A stretch of 64,000 nt of DNA from Lewinella sp. W8 (lineage in GTDB: Bacteria; Bacteroidota; Bacteroidia; Chitinophagales; Saprospiraceae): NCBI RefSeq assembly GCF_004375085.3, contig NZ_SNAQ03000013.1, positions 1-64,000 of the forward strand, given 5' to 3'. Positions within the stretch are counted from its first letter, which is position 1; each line of letters starts with the position of its first letter. Below the pieces are notes generated by a model. That model was not told the origin of the DNA. It saw nothing but the letters and a program-made list of their open reading frames with translations, and ran no database searches. The position numbers were made by a program, and so were the translations under genes. Shown piece by piece: positions 7,433 through 12,136 of this stretch.

Positions 7433-8647
7433 TTACGCTTCTTTTAGTTGGGTACTGACCTCCACCGTCTCGTGGAGGGTACGGTGAACCGGACAGCGAT
7501 CGGCAATCTCCAGTAGTCGGGTGACCTGAGCCTCCTCCAGGGGCCCCTTCATGACGATAAAGCGCTCGAACAGATCGATTTTTGCCGGCCTTTCTTCCGC
7601 GGCTTCCATGTCCTGGACGTAGTCTTTACGGTGGTCAATGTGTACTTCCACCTCCTCCAGCGGCCACTTCTTTCTACGGGCGTACATCTGCATGGTCATG
7701 GCGGTGCAGGCACCCAGACCCGCGCTGAGTAATTCGTAGGGGCTGGGGCCAAAGTCATTCCCGCCGATGCTCTCGGGTTCGTCGGCGGTCAGGTGGTGTT
7801 GCCGCACCATCACTTCGGTGGTGAAACCCGAACTACCCAGACGCACCGCAACCGCCTGTTGACTTCTCAACGGGTCGTTCTTGGCCACTTTAATGTAGCG
7901 GGATGACCAGCCGGCAATCACCTGCCCGGCGTAATGGGCGTCCTCACCGTCGGTGAGTAAATGGTCCGCACCGTCCAGAGAAACAAAGCTTTTGGGGTGA
8001 TGGGCCGCATGATAGAGTTTGGCCGCCTCATCAATGCTTACCGTCCGGTCCTGGGGGGAATGCATAATCAGGATGGCGGCGTCGAGGTCTTTAATGTGCT
8101 CTTCGACGCGATGTTGCTCGAGGTCATCAAGAAATTGCTTGGCAATTTTAAAGGGCCTTCCTCCAATATCTACGGTGGCCGCGCCGGCGGACTCAATTTC
8201 CTCAATGCTTTCGGCAAAATGGGCGGAGACGTGGTCCGGGGCGAAGGGAGCACCGATGGTGGCTACCGCCTTTACGGAAGGGAGTTGACCGGCGGCACAA
8301 AGTACGGCGGCTCCACCCAGGCTATGGCCCACCAGCAGGGAGGGGGGCTGATGGTTTTCGGTAAGCCATTCGGCGGCCGCAATCAAATCGGAAATGTTGG
8401 TGGTGAAGTTGGTATCCACAAAATCTCCGCCACTGTTGCCTAATCCGGTAAAGTCAAAACGCAACACGGCGTACCCCTGCATATTCAACTCGCGGCTGAT
8501 GTTGCGGACGGCGGCGAGACTGCTCGAACACGTAAAGCAATGGGCGAAGAGCGCGAAAGAATGGGGCAACTGGTTTACGGGAACCTCCAGGCGGGCGGAT
8601 AACTGATGGCCTCGTCCGTTGGCAAAGGTGATTTTAGTGCTTTTCAA
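7433..8647 (-). CDS. Fusion of alpha/beta hydrolase and OsmC-like peroxiredoxin
   Basis: A 404-residue two-domain protein. Residues 1-255 form an alpha/beta hydrolase with the nucleophile elbow GHSLGG (Ser109) and a probable catalytic His in LDGADHLL. Residues about 270-400 form an OsmC/Ohr domain with both reactive cysteines in context: GLGACTAMTM and DRCPVHRTLHE. OsmC proteins reduce organic hydroperoxides. The fusion is a known bifunctional architecture; the hydrolase substrate is unknown. The start is a TTG at 8645-8647, chosen because KSTKITFANG matches the family start and no ATG is near. It converges on the GH9 gene (7 bp apart) and is divergent from the small gene at 8760. Confidence 0.9.
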   Translation of the reverse strand: MKSTKITFANGRGHQLSARLEVPVNQLPHSFALFAHCFTCSSSLAAVRNISRELNMQGYAVLRFDFTGLGNSGGDFVDTNFTTNISDLIAAAEWLTENHQPPSLLVGHSLGGAAVLCAAGQLPSVKAVATIGAPFAPDHVSAHFAESIEEIESAGAATVDIGGRPFKIAKQFLDDLEQHRVEEHIKDLDAAILIMHSPQDRTVSIDEAAKLYHAAHHPKSFVSLDGADHLLTDGEDAHYAGQVIAGWSSRYIKVAKNDPLRSQQAVAVRLGSSGFTTEVMVRQHHLTADEPESIGGNDFGPSPYELLSAGLGACTAMTMQMYARRKKWPLEEVEVHIDHRKDYVQDMEAAEERPAKIDLFERFIVMKGPLEEAQVTRLLEIADRCPVHRTLHETVEVSTQLKEA

Positions 8648-8759: not shown

Positions 8760-9014
8760 ATGTCTGCACCTAAGACCGATCCGAAATTAGGGGAAAAGCC
8801 CCGTAATGACCTTCCCGGACAGGAGGAGCGAGATCGCCTGCGCGACATCATCGTAGTAATCGTTACCTACCCACTGACCCCCACGAAGCGAGCGGATCAG
8901 CTGGCGCGGAGAAAGCCCTGGTTAGAGTTTATCTCACTACTGCTGAAGGTAGCCCTCGCCGCCTATGCCCTGTACCAGGCCGCGATGAGTGGCGGAGCGG
9001 GTGCCTCCTACTGA
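8760..9014 (+). CDS. Small one-helix membrane protein, function unknown
   Basis: 84 residues, not recognised. The N-terminal half is charged and hydrophilic (KTDPKLGEKPRNDLPGQEERD). A moderately hydrophobic segment IIVVIVTYPL follows at about 29-38. A clear membrane helix (FISLLLKVALAAYALYQAAM, about 55-74) is followed by a Gly/Ala tail. A good promoter lies immediately upstream, giving a leader of only about ten nucleotides, which supports a real gene. It converges on the flavoprotein at 9023, 8 bp away. Confidence 0.7.
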   Translation: MSAPKTDPKLGEKPRNDLPGQEERDRLRDIIVVIVTYPLTPTKRADQLARRKPWLEFISLLLKVALAAYALYQAAMSGGAGASY

Positions 9015-9022
9015 TCGATGCC

Positions 9023-10696
9023 TTAGGTTTCGGCCAGGTACTGGTGGACGAATTTGATGGCCATGGCGCCTTCTCCCACGGCCGAAGCTACCCGGTTCAT
9101 GGCTCCGGAGCGAACATCACCGGCCGCGAAAACACCCGGTTGACAGGTCTCCAGCAGATAGGGGCTCCGGTCGAGGGGCCAGTTGCGGCGGTTGTTGTTC
9201 TCACCGAAGACCTCCCGCCCGGTAATCACAAAACCCCGGTTGTCCACGGCGATCTGTCCGCGCTCAATCCACTCCGTCCGCGGACGGGCACCGATGAAGA
9301 TGAACACCGCATCGGCGGGTGTTTCGTAGGTGCTGTCTTCTTCCAGGTTTCTGATGACGAGCCGTTTGACGCGATCTTCCTCGCCGCAAACCTTCTCAAT
9401 TTGCCGGAACCCCTGAACTTCGATGTTGTCGATGCCGTCAATTTGGTCAATCAGGTAAGAAGACATACTGGAGGTCAGGTCGGGCTTCCGGATAAGGATG
9501 TTGACCTGCTTGGCAAATTTGGAGAGGTAGACGGCCCCCTGACCGGCAGAATTTCCGCCACCCACTACGAAGATGGTGCGATCTTCGCAGGCTTTGGCTT
9601 CCGTCATGGCGGCTCCGTAATAGACACCCGCCCCGCTGAATTGATCGGCGCCTTCGGCGGGAAGTTTCCGGTACTGGACCCCGGTGGTAAGGATTACGGC
9701 CCGGGTTTTTACTTCGGACCCGTCGTCCAACGTCAGAATTTTATAGTTGTGTTCCATGCGAATATCCTGGACTTCCCGCGGAGAGACCAGTTCCACCCCA
9801 AACCGGAGGGTTTGGGCCATGGCCCGGCGGGTAAGCTCCGAGCCGGATAACCCACTCGGAAAACCGAGGTAATTCTCGATCCGGCTGCTGGTGCCCGCCT
9901 GCCCGCCCGGTGCCCGCCTTTCGATCAGCAGGGTTTTCAGCCCCTCCGAACCTCCGTATACGGCGGCGGCCATTCCGGCCGGTCCGCCGCCCACAATGAC
10001 TACGTCATACAAATCCTCACTCACCGAAGCGCTCATGCCGAGCCGTTCGGCGAGGTCGGCCAGTTTGGGGTCAACCATACTCGACCCGTCCTCAAAGATG
10101 ACCAGGGGAAGCTCCCGGTTGCCGCACTGGTGCAGACCGAGGATTTCCTGACCGGCCTCACTCTGGGCCTCCACCCACTGGTAGGGCTTGAGGTTGGCGG
10201 CCAACCAGTCCTTGATGTTGTGGGACTTCGGGCTGTACTGGTACCCCACCACGCGGATGCCCTGAAAGCCGGGGCGATAGCTCAGCTTCCAGTCTTCCAG
10301 GAGCTCGTCGAGTACGGAGTAAAGCTTTTCTTCGGGTGGATCCCAGGGCTTGAGCAGGTAGTAGTCGAGCTGCACGTCATTGATGGCCTTAATGGCTGCC
10401 TGGGTATCGGAATAGGCCGTAAGTAGCGCCCGTTTGGCCAGCGGAAAAAACGCTTTGGCCTGCTCAAGAAAATTCACCCCAAGCATCTCCGGCATCCGCT
10501 GATCTGAAAGGAAAAGGGCCACCGTTTCCCCCTTCTTTTTCAGCTCCTTCACGGCATCGAGGGCTTCCTCTGCGCTAGTGGTGCTGATGACCCGGTACTG
10601 ATCTTTATACTGATTCCTCAGGTCCCGCTTGAGGGAACGAAGAACCTGGGGATCGTCATCAACGGAAAGAATTATGGGCTTTCGGGGAGTAGACAT
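9023..10696 (-). CDS. Response regulator fused to thioredoxin-reductase-like FAD oxidoreductase
   Basis: A 557-residue three-part protein. Residues 7-125 are a receiver domain: DDD at 13-15, phosphoacceptor Asp65 in LSDQRMPE, Thr93 and Lys116. Residues about 146-222 look like a glutaredoxin/thioredoxin fold whose usual CxxC position reads YSPKSH, so it has no redox dithiol. Residues 229-557 are a thioredoxin-reductase-like flavoprotein with FAD motif VGGGPAG (235-241) and NADPH motif VGGGNSAGQGA. The CxxC of true thioredoxin reductases is absent; the region reads YYGAAMTEAKAC. Database annotations call such proteins fused response regulator/thioredoxin-disulfide reductase. It follows the histidine kinase by 30 bp on the same strand and is presumably its phosphorylation partner. 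The redox substrate is unknown. Confidence 0.93.
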   Translation of the reverse strand: MSTPRKPIILSVDDDPQVLRSLKRDLRNQYKDQYRVISTTSAEEALDAVKELKKKGETVALFLSDQRMPEMLGVNFLEQAKAFFPLAKRALLTAYSDTQAAIKAINDVQLDYYLLKPWDPPEEKLYSVLDELLEDWKLSYRPGFQGIRVVGYQYSPKSHNIKDWLAANLKPYQWVEAQSEAGQEILGLHQCGNRELPLVIFEDGSSMVDPKLADLAERLGMSASVSEDLYDVVIVGGGPAGMAAAVYGGSEGLKTLLIERRAPGGQAGTSSRIENYLGFPSGLSGSELTRRAMAQTLRFGVELVSPREVQDIRMEHNYKILTLDDGSEVKTRAVILTTGVQYRKLPAEGADQFSGAGVYYGAAMTEAKACEDRTIFVVGGGNSAGQGAVYLSKFAKQVNILIRKPDLTSSMSSYLIDQIDGIDNIEVQGFRQIEKVCGEEDRVKRLVIRNLEEDSTYETPADAVFIFIGARPRTEWIERGQIAVDNRGFVITGREVFGENNNRRNWPLDRSPYLLETCQPGVFAAGDVRSGAMNRVASAVGEGAMAIKFVHQYLAET

Positions 10697-10726
10697 GTTG
10701 CGTGATTAGCGGATGGATAAAGGGTA

Positions 10727-12136
10727 TTAGAGAGGGAAACAGACGCGAAAACAGGTTTTCCCGGGTTCGCTTTCGAGTCCAATGGTGCCACCGTGCCGAT
10801 TCAGGACTCTCCGGACAATGTCGAGCCCCATACCGGTCCCCTCCCCAATTCCCTTGGTCGTGAAAAAGGGATCAAAGACTTTACGCTGAATGTCTTCCGG
10901 TATGCCACTGCCGTTATCCTCAATTTCTACACAGAGGTTATCGCGTTGCTGGTAAGTACGCAGGATAATCTTCCCTCCCTTGTCGGGCAGCGCGTCAATG
11001 GCGTTGGCAATGAGGTTGGTCCAGACCTGATTCAGCTCACCCTCCAGCGCCTTGATGTGGGGCAGGTCCTTGTCGACTTCTTTTTCGAGGGTGATATTTT
11101 TCTTCTTGAACTTGAATTTAAGCATGGTCAGGGTGGACTTTAAGCCGGTATGCACGTCCACGAACTCCATGCTCGGATCACTATCCATGTGACTGTAAGT
11201 CTTGATGGAGGAGACCAGCTCAGAAATGCGTCCACTGGCCGTCTGGATTTCCGCCACCAACCGTTCCGTAGTCAGGTTCGTCTCGATCCACCGGAGGACG
11301 GGAGCCACCGCCGCTTCGGGAAGAACGGCCGCAATGTCATCGAGATGCTCCGGGGTGAAGGAAAAATCCACCAGGGTGTCGACAATGTCGTCTCCCCGCT
11401 CAATCCCACGGTCATCGAACCAGTCGAGCAGGTCGTCATTCATCTCCTCTCTTTGCATCAGACTTAAATCCTCCGGGTCCGGAGCCTCGGCGATGCGGTT
11501 GAAGAGAATCTTGTTGACCGCATCCACGTCATCCGGGTCTACGCGCATCGTGATCACCTCCTTGAAGCGTTCCGGGGTCTGCTGCAGGTGTCGGTGGAGT
11601 TCCTGACTGGAACGCACCATCGCCGAGGCGGGATTGTTCAGCTCGTGGGCCAGGCCCGCACTCATTTTACCCAGGGCCATCAGCTTCTCGTCCATCAGCT
11701 GGATTTGCTGGAAATCCCGGACCCGATTCGTCATCACACTCACCAGGACCTGGGTGAGTTTGTAGCTGGTGTTGACCATCTCCACGAAGCAATCCCGGTG
11801 CAATTCGAGCACGTAATTATCCTCCAGGGCCAGCCCGGCCGCACCGGCGTGCGTCATGCGACTAAACGGAAGAATACCGAACACAAAGGGGCCTTCCCAT
11901 ACGCCCAATTCCCTTTTTCGGCCGTCCTTTTCTCTCCGGATCAGGTAGGACCCCCGCAGCATCACCTGCATGTGGTTCACTTCGTCACCGTGTTGAAAAA
12001 CGTAACTGTCCTTAGGGTACCGAACGTAGCGGGATTTATCGAGCATCCACCGGAGAGCATCATCCTCGACGGGCTGGAACAGCTCCATTTCCCGTAGTTG
12101 GGTAAACAGGTCCGGTGTTTTTTCAAGGAGCTCCAT
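10727..12136 (-). CDS. Cyclic-nucleotide-binding-domain histidine kinase
   Basis: A soluble sensor kinase of 469 residues from the ATG at 12136 (an in-frame ATG at 12163 would add nine). Residues about 10-130 are a cNMP-binding/Crp-type beta-barrel (VFQHGDEVNHMQVMLRGSYL). The H-box GKMSAGLAHELNNPAS contains His164. A long insertion of about 100 residues separates it from a second helical hairpin. The ATPase domain has VWTNLIANAIDAL, EDNGSGIP, DPFFTTKG and GTGMGLDIV. No transmembrane segment is present, so it senses a cytoplasmic signal. It is the first gene of an operon with the receiver-flavoprotein 30 bp downstream. Whether the domain binds a nucleotide is not certain. Confidence 0.92.
   Translation of the reverse strand: MELLEKTPDLFTQLREMELFQPVEDDALRWMLDKSRYVRYPKDSYVFQHGDEVNHMQVMLRGSYLIRREKDGRKRELGVWEGPFVFGILPFSRMTHAGAAGLALEDNYVLELHRDCFVEMVNTSYKLTQVLVSVMTNRVRDFQQIQLMDEKLMALGKMSAGLAHELNNPASAMVRSSQELHRHLQQTPERFKEVITMRVDPDDVDAVNKILFNRIAEAPDPEDLSLMQREEMNDDLLDWFDDRGIERGDDIVDTLVDFSFTPEHLDDIAAVLPEAAVAPVLRWIETNLTTERLVAEIQTASGRISELVSSIKTYSHMDSDPSMEFVDVHTGLKSTLTMLKFKFKKKNITLEKEVDKDLPHIKALEGELNQVWTNLIANAIDALPDKGGKIILRTYQQRDNLCVEIEDNGSGIPEDIQRKVFDPFFTTKGIGEGTGMGLDIVRRVLNRHGGTIGLESEPGKTCFRVCFPL

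Follow-up and report, generated by a model that had tools for sequence, protein, structure and literature searches.

The window analysed in this study is the whole stretch of 64,000 nucleotides from Lewinella sp. W8 that occupies positions 1 to 64,000 of contig NZ_SNAQ03000013.1 (NCBI RefSeq assembly GCF_004375085.3, forward strand), and our subject is a pair of minus-strand genes at 9023-12136, in which a histidine kinase gene is followed by a gene for a response regulator fused to a flavoprotein. The pair spans exactly the region given in a preliminary description made from the sequence alone. The upstream gene (10727-12136, ATG start at 12136) encodes the kinase of 469 amino acids, and the downstream gene (9023-10696) encodes the regulator of 557 amino acids, which is composed of a receiver, a glutaredoxin-like domain and a thioredoxin-reductase-like module. 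The two open reading frames (ORFs) are tightly spaced, as had been noted, with 30 bp (10697-10726) between the kinase stop and the regulator start. The regulator shares 78-83% identity with its closest named relatives, most of them from Neolewinella or Lewinella. We found that the kinase and the fused regulator are a conserved system, and that the flavoprotein has lost both of the CxxC motifs (two cysteines separated by two residues) that would be expected from its domains.

The Crp-type sensor domain that the preliminary description had assigned to the kinase was recovered by a Pfam search, in which residues 38-123 (11768-12025) matched PF00027 (cNMP_binding) at 31.6 bits against a cut-off of 27.5 and can be placed in this fold. 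The domain lacks the Glu and Arg of the cyclic-nucleotide cassette; by eye, GILPFSRMTHAG stands where GE..L....RtA is expected. The Bacteroidota kinases have G.LP.SR in common at the cassette, and kinases of other phyla differ. The phospho-acceptor His164 (codon at 11645-11647, motif AGLAHELNNP) is invariant in the 38 aligned Bacteroidota kinases (38/38), and the ATP-binding domain at residues 367-469 (10730-11038) matches PF02518 (HATPase_c) at 89.9 bits, so that the H-box histidine and the ATPase domain of a histidine kinase are both present. The match of residues 155-193 to PF00512 (HisKA) reaches 23.3 bits, below the cut-off of 26.9, as expected because the dimerisation hairpin carries an insertion at residues 197-273 (11318-11548). 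The helical nature of this long insertion, already remarked on, is borne out by a structure model (mean predicted local distance difference test, pLDDT, 83.3; predicted template modelling score, pTM, 0.50), in which a helix at 125-196 containing His164 is followed by four shorter helices in 201-271 and a helix at 274-315; no membrane segment is visible in this model. W and RI..LV positions of the insertion recur in aligned kinases from five phyla, and a Pfam search of the insertion gave nothing convincing. On other kinases, regulators dock near the distal end of the hairpin, and, by analogy, a docking role for the regulator is plausible for this insertion, which sits at that end. Sequence comparison indicates that the sensor of the kinase is exchangeable: the kinase of Nostoc edaphicum starts with a receiver-like stretch (by eye), and that of one sampled locus aligns to the window kinase only from residue 150.

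The receiver of the regulator (residues 9-122, 10331-10672) matches PF00072 at 53.5 bits against a cut-off of 30.2. For family comparisons we used 143 distinct sequences, of which 126 have a receiver and 17 do not. Asp65 (codon at 10502-10504), which had been proposed as the phospho-acceptor, is kept in all 126 receiver-bearing sequences, and Thr93 and Lys116 in 125 each. These alignments support the view that the receiver and the kinase keep the residues required for phosphotransfer. In line with the preliminary description, the predicted output is a flavoprotein fold and not a DNA-binding domain, none of which was found in the regulator by the Pfam search. The segment after the receiver, at residues of about 145-225 (10022-10264), is a degenerate glutaredoxin-like domain, which has no Pfam match in the window protein or in a Streptomyces relative; the corresponding segment of a Nostoc relative matches PF00462 (Glutaredoxin) at 27.4 bits (cut-off 22.9). 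At its active site Ser155-Pro-Lys-Ser158 (SPKS) replaces CPYC. The module for flavin adenine dinucleotide (FAD) and nicotinamide adenine dinucleotide (phosphate) (NAD(P)H) follows at residues 230-543 (9068-10009) and matches PF07992 (Pyr_redox_2) at 125.6 bits; Gly361-Ala-Ala-Met364 (GAAM, 9605-9616) occupies its thioredoxin-reductase CxxC site.

The absence of both CxxC motifs, first noted for the window protein, extends to its relatives. Among the 143 sequences, which were chosen for their resemblance to the window protein and could therefore leave out CxxC-bearing members, none has CxxC at the glutaredoxin or the thioredoxin-reductase site, and none has Cys at the first glutaredoxin-site position; three have CxxC elsewhere, near residue 430. 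All 143 retain the GxGxxG and G-x-x-NSA motifs for FAD and NAD(P)H. No cysteine is invariant, and since Cys370 is present in 113 and Cys518 in 97 of these sequences, neither can be essential to all members. The structure model of the regulator (mean pLDDT 80.8, pTM 0.70) resembles thioredoxin reductases, and the module shares its predicted fold and its FAD and NAD(P)H motifs with TrxB (low-molecular-weight thioredoxin reductase) and AhpF. It differs from them in that its NAD(P)H domain lacks CxxC and its scores stay below the cut-offs of both models (TIGR01292 for TrxB, 229.3 against 343.45 bits; TIGR03140 for AhpF, 162.8 against 502.9 bits). An ordinary thioredoxin reductase is ruled out as a class by the absent CxxC and the TIGR01292 score. 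Because a normal thioredoxin reductase, with CAVC, is encoded elsewhere in the same genome, the regulator is not filling that role. Since the family is named thioredoxin reductases in databases without having the defining cysteines, this annotation is probably misleading.

The conservation of the pair was examined in three collections. With one genome scanned per species, the best 80 of 101 confirmed regulator relatives were kept; an even sample of 296 Bacteroidota genomes, 45 of which match the regulator at E <= 1e-60, gave 40 full-length genes besides that of the window, mostly together with some 10 kb of surrounding sequence; and plasmid records were added. Some of the 40 sampled loci also belong to the 80 (at least L127/L020, L138/L049 and L148/L010), and two loci (L058 and L137) are cut by contig ends. 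The preliminary description had suggested looking for co-occurrence of the two genes, and a conserved neighbourhood was found: a kinase relative precedes the regulator on its own strand in 76 of the best 80 loci, and is found in the surroundings of 37 of the 40 sampled loci and with all ten full-length receiver-bearing plasmid matches (Cyanobacteria, Deinococcota, Actinomycetota and Betaproteobacteria). Order and spacing vary, with an extra gene between the two in L144 and L145, the kinase downstream in one sampled locus (L133) and on the other strand in another (L146). In the plasmid loci the kinase is downstream of the regulator, directly in nine and 2.6 kb away, with two genes in between, in Nostoc edaphicum. 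Another kinase gene is present upstream in three of these ten loci (Deinococcus aetherius, Caballeronia NK8 and Paraburkholderia PGU19). That the two genes occur together in different phyla with their order reversed speaks for function and not just for common descent, and this conservation rules out chance or an annotation artefact. In a comparison of nine Hymenobacter loci, whose genomes carry two or three copies each, the closest receiver goes with the closest kinase in eight, ties counted, L074 being the exception.

The glutaredoxin-like and flavin unit occurs in three architectures, namely with a receiver, with a directly fused Crp-type domain (L094, L098 and L152, with PF00027 above its cut-off), and alone (L149, L096 and L106). 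The second form corresponds to the Crp-domain thioredoxin reductases, listed by NCBI as “cyclic nucleotide-binding domain-containing thioredoxin-disulfide reductase”, among which we count ATII-TrxR by its description. They share the glutaredoxin-like and flavin module with the window protein (41-44% identity over residues 145-556), and differ from it in carrying the Crp-type sensor in cis, whereas in the window the sensor is on the kinase and would act via the receiver. This exchange of a sensor in cis for one in trans suggests, from domain arrangement, that both forms have the flavin unit as their output. In L094, L102 and L104 the gene of the Crp-type or related flavoenzyme ends a chaperone cluster (clpB and trxA, and in L094 also dnaK and grpE), and the zinc finger is annotated in L094 and L104. 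In a Tsukamurella locus (L091:9149-11276), genes annotated as S-(hydroxymethyl)mycothiol dehydrogenase and MBL-fold hydrolase follow the cluster, which points to electrophile (formaldehyde) stress.

A small ORF for a UBP-type zinc finger is a further companion of the family. It was found near 9 of the best 80 loci, in six plasmid loci and in plasmid locus L191, and in 19 of the 40 sampled full-length loci, in three of which it is inside an antiporter gene. It also accompanies two of five sampled genes without a receiver. Of the 13 receiver-less plasmid matches whose surroundings were examined, hand-picked from 134 records, four have it. Among the 296 Bacteroidota genomes the finger scores above its cut-off in 30. 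Of these, 27 also encode the flavoprotein, which is present in 45 of the 296 (Fisher p 4e-23; at genus level 16/19 versus 13/120, p 1e-10; both values ignore kinship). Finger and flavoenzyme are adjacent in 21 of the 27 genomes and apart in the other six (G099, G122, G166, G214, G231 and G261); in G122 the zinc-finger ORF is followed by one resembling, by eye, a Kup-type potassium transporter. In the three genomes that have the finger without the flavoprotein, it follows an antiporter ORF in one (L156), is fused to an antiporter in another (L159), and has, by eye, a DsbA-like protein and an antiporter as neighbours in the third (L161). A genome search found no UBP-type zinc finger in the genome of the window.

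Considering these results together, we propose, with a probability of about one half, that the phosphorelay regulates an NAD(P)H flavoprotein devoid of thiol pairs, the likely setting being redox or electrophile stress. The cytoplasmic kinase would sense a signal via its Crp-type domain, autophosphorylate at His164 and pass the phosphate to Asp65, and the helical insertion may help to hold the large regulator. The phosphorylated receiver would then alter the activity or the partner binding of the glutaredoxin/thioredoxin-reductase-like module. Because an FAD/NAD(P)H module of this kind has no cysteine pair, its reduced flavin would have to pass electrons to a non-thiol acceptor, possibly a small molecule or a partner protein, or else act as a redox-dependent docking surface. 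The observations of the preliminary description are confirmed, and its interpretation, phosphorylation-controlled redox chemistry, is partly supported. The gene pairing and the loss of thiols are firm, and phosphotransfer, the direction of control, the electron acceptor and the physiological role are inferred.

Several results weigh against this proposal. Within the stretches examined, 4 of the best 80 loci (L016, L020, L021 and L070) have no kinase nearby, and the same is true of 3 of the 40 sampled loci (L127, L135 and L143). Covariation between receiver and kinase columns gives strong scores (at Tyr30-Ser310, Lys124-Ser310 and the like) and is dominated by ancestry, not pointing at a docking surface; since the domain distance matrices all correlate at 0.78-0.90 as well, docking is neither supported nor refuted by it. 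Compared with Lactococcus lactis thioredoxin reductase, the FAD/NAD(P)H domains of the model fit the flavin-reducing (FR) form better (template modelling score 0.85) than the flavin-oxidising (FO) form (0.63), which would suit an enzyme needing no swing of the NAD(P)H domain and counts in favour of the proposal, but the flavin-site segment 262-284 has pLDDT below 50 and makes this domain orientation weak evidence. What speaks most strongly against a mechanism without thiols is that ATII-TrxR, a protein from a heterologous source with a Crp domain at 28-146 and a TrxB domain at 234-522, is reported to reduce thioredoxin and 5,5'-dithiobis(2-nitrobenzoic acid) (DTNB) depending on NADPH or NADH, which would mean disulfide chemistry (PMC6544261, as excerpted).

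A different role for the flavoprotein, which we regard as possible and rather unlikely, is that of an ancillary redox-reading subunit of a Kef-like cation/proton antiporter. The Crp-type kinase would control the cysteine-less flavoprotein, which would gate K+/H+ exchange through the UBP-type zinc finger, the phosphorylated regulator opening or closing ion efflux in electrophile stress; lineages of the window type would have kept the kinase and the flavoprotein and lost or relocated the finger and the antiporter, a history that is equally doubtful. An ORF for such an antiporter (PF00999 plus TrkA_N) is present within the same 10-kb stretch in 20 of the 40 sampled loci, comprising all 16 of one family (f23) and L139, L142, L144 and L145, which belong to three others. 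In L110 the antiporter, zinc finger, kinase and regulator genes succeed one another on one strand, and in L142, L144, L145 and L159 antiporter and zinc finger are a single protein. The antiporter of L139 (7451-9784) has a C-terminus resembling mycoredoxin (TIGR02200, 40.7 bits, below the cut-off of 89.5). A precedent is KefF, described in the consulted part of PMC2920069 as a flavin-binding, quinone-oxidoreductase-like ancillary subunit required for full KefC activity, and the clustering of a Kef-like antiporter with the flavoprotein in some relatives recalls it. The present flavoprotein has another fold, however, the relatives add a zinc finger and a phosphorelay, and the window locus has no antiporter nearby, the relative in its genome lying on another contig (C15), so that the window does not qualify as a Kef system. 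Furthermore, no antiporter match was found in the best 80 loci (L005-L084), the antiporters do not reach the curated cut-offs of the models for KefB, KefC and YbaL, and the link is carried by four related Bacteroidota families.

We consider it still less probable that the regulator is a real disulfide reductase working through cysteines elsewhere, such as Cys370 and Cys518, or through direct electron transfer from flavin to thioredoxin. The authors of ATII-TrxR name Cys206-Cys223 and Cys376-Cys467, not CxxC, as its redox centres (PMC6544261, as excerpted), a relative from Cupriavidus metallidurans CH34 has a cysteine pair in the glutaredoxin-like domain with the same 17-residue spacing as Cys206-Cys223, and trxA adjoins the zinc finger and the Crp-fused enzyme in L094 and L104. 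Against it stand the lack of any invariant cysteine in the family and the serines of the window protein at the glutaredoxin-site cysteine positions, and ATII-TrxR was compared by its published description. Similarly improbable is that the flavin module is a second sensor, the NAD(P)H/FAD redox state tuning the lifetime of receiver phosphorylation and a partner protein being the true output; missing catalytic thiols throughout the family and a zinc finger that is likely an adaptor would agree with this, but the flavin and nucleotide motifs kept in every member are expected of a working enzyme, and the domain joined to a receiver is usually the output.

Two neighbouring genes in the window can be mentioned. 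Downstream of the regulator, at 7433-8647 on the minus strand, lies a gene for an alpha/beta hydrolase fused to an OsmC-like domain (PF12146 and PF02566), a relative of which is present in the surroundings of nine loci; in L164 an OsmC-like ORF (by eye) adjoins the zinc finger. A gene for a small protein at about 8785-9013 on the plus strand is convergent with the regulator, and an 82-amino-acid relative occurs in 11 Neolewinella-type loci.

The fused protein type was rightly said to be known from annotations, as response regulators joining a receiver to thioredoxin reductase are already in print under the term “Mycobacterium-like combination” (PMC5847659). Like the window regulator, these have a receiver and a thioredoxin-reductase-like module and no DNA-binding domain; the part of that article used here names the domain combination only, and does not contain the kinase partner, the glutaredoxin-like middle, the CxxC loss or the zinc finger. 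Searches of the open-access full text in PMC found no description of the pairing, the cysteine loss or the zinc-finger and antiporter link. To the preliminary description the present analysis adds the direct fusion of a Crp-type domain to the flavoenzyme, the partnership with a zinc finger and, in some lineages, the Kef-like antiporter. If the proposed control of the flavoprotein is true, two-component signalling would lead to a flavoenzyme and not to transcription in bacteria from at least five phyla, and a Crp-type domain would drive one and the same enzyme in two ways, either when fused to it or as part of a kinase. The links to the zinc finger and the antiporter would provide a first testable context for bacterial UBP-type fingers.

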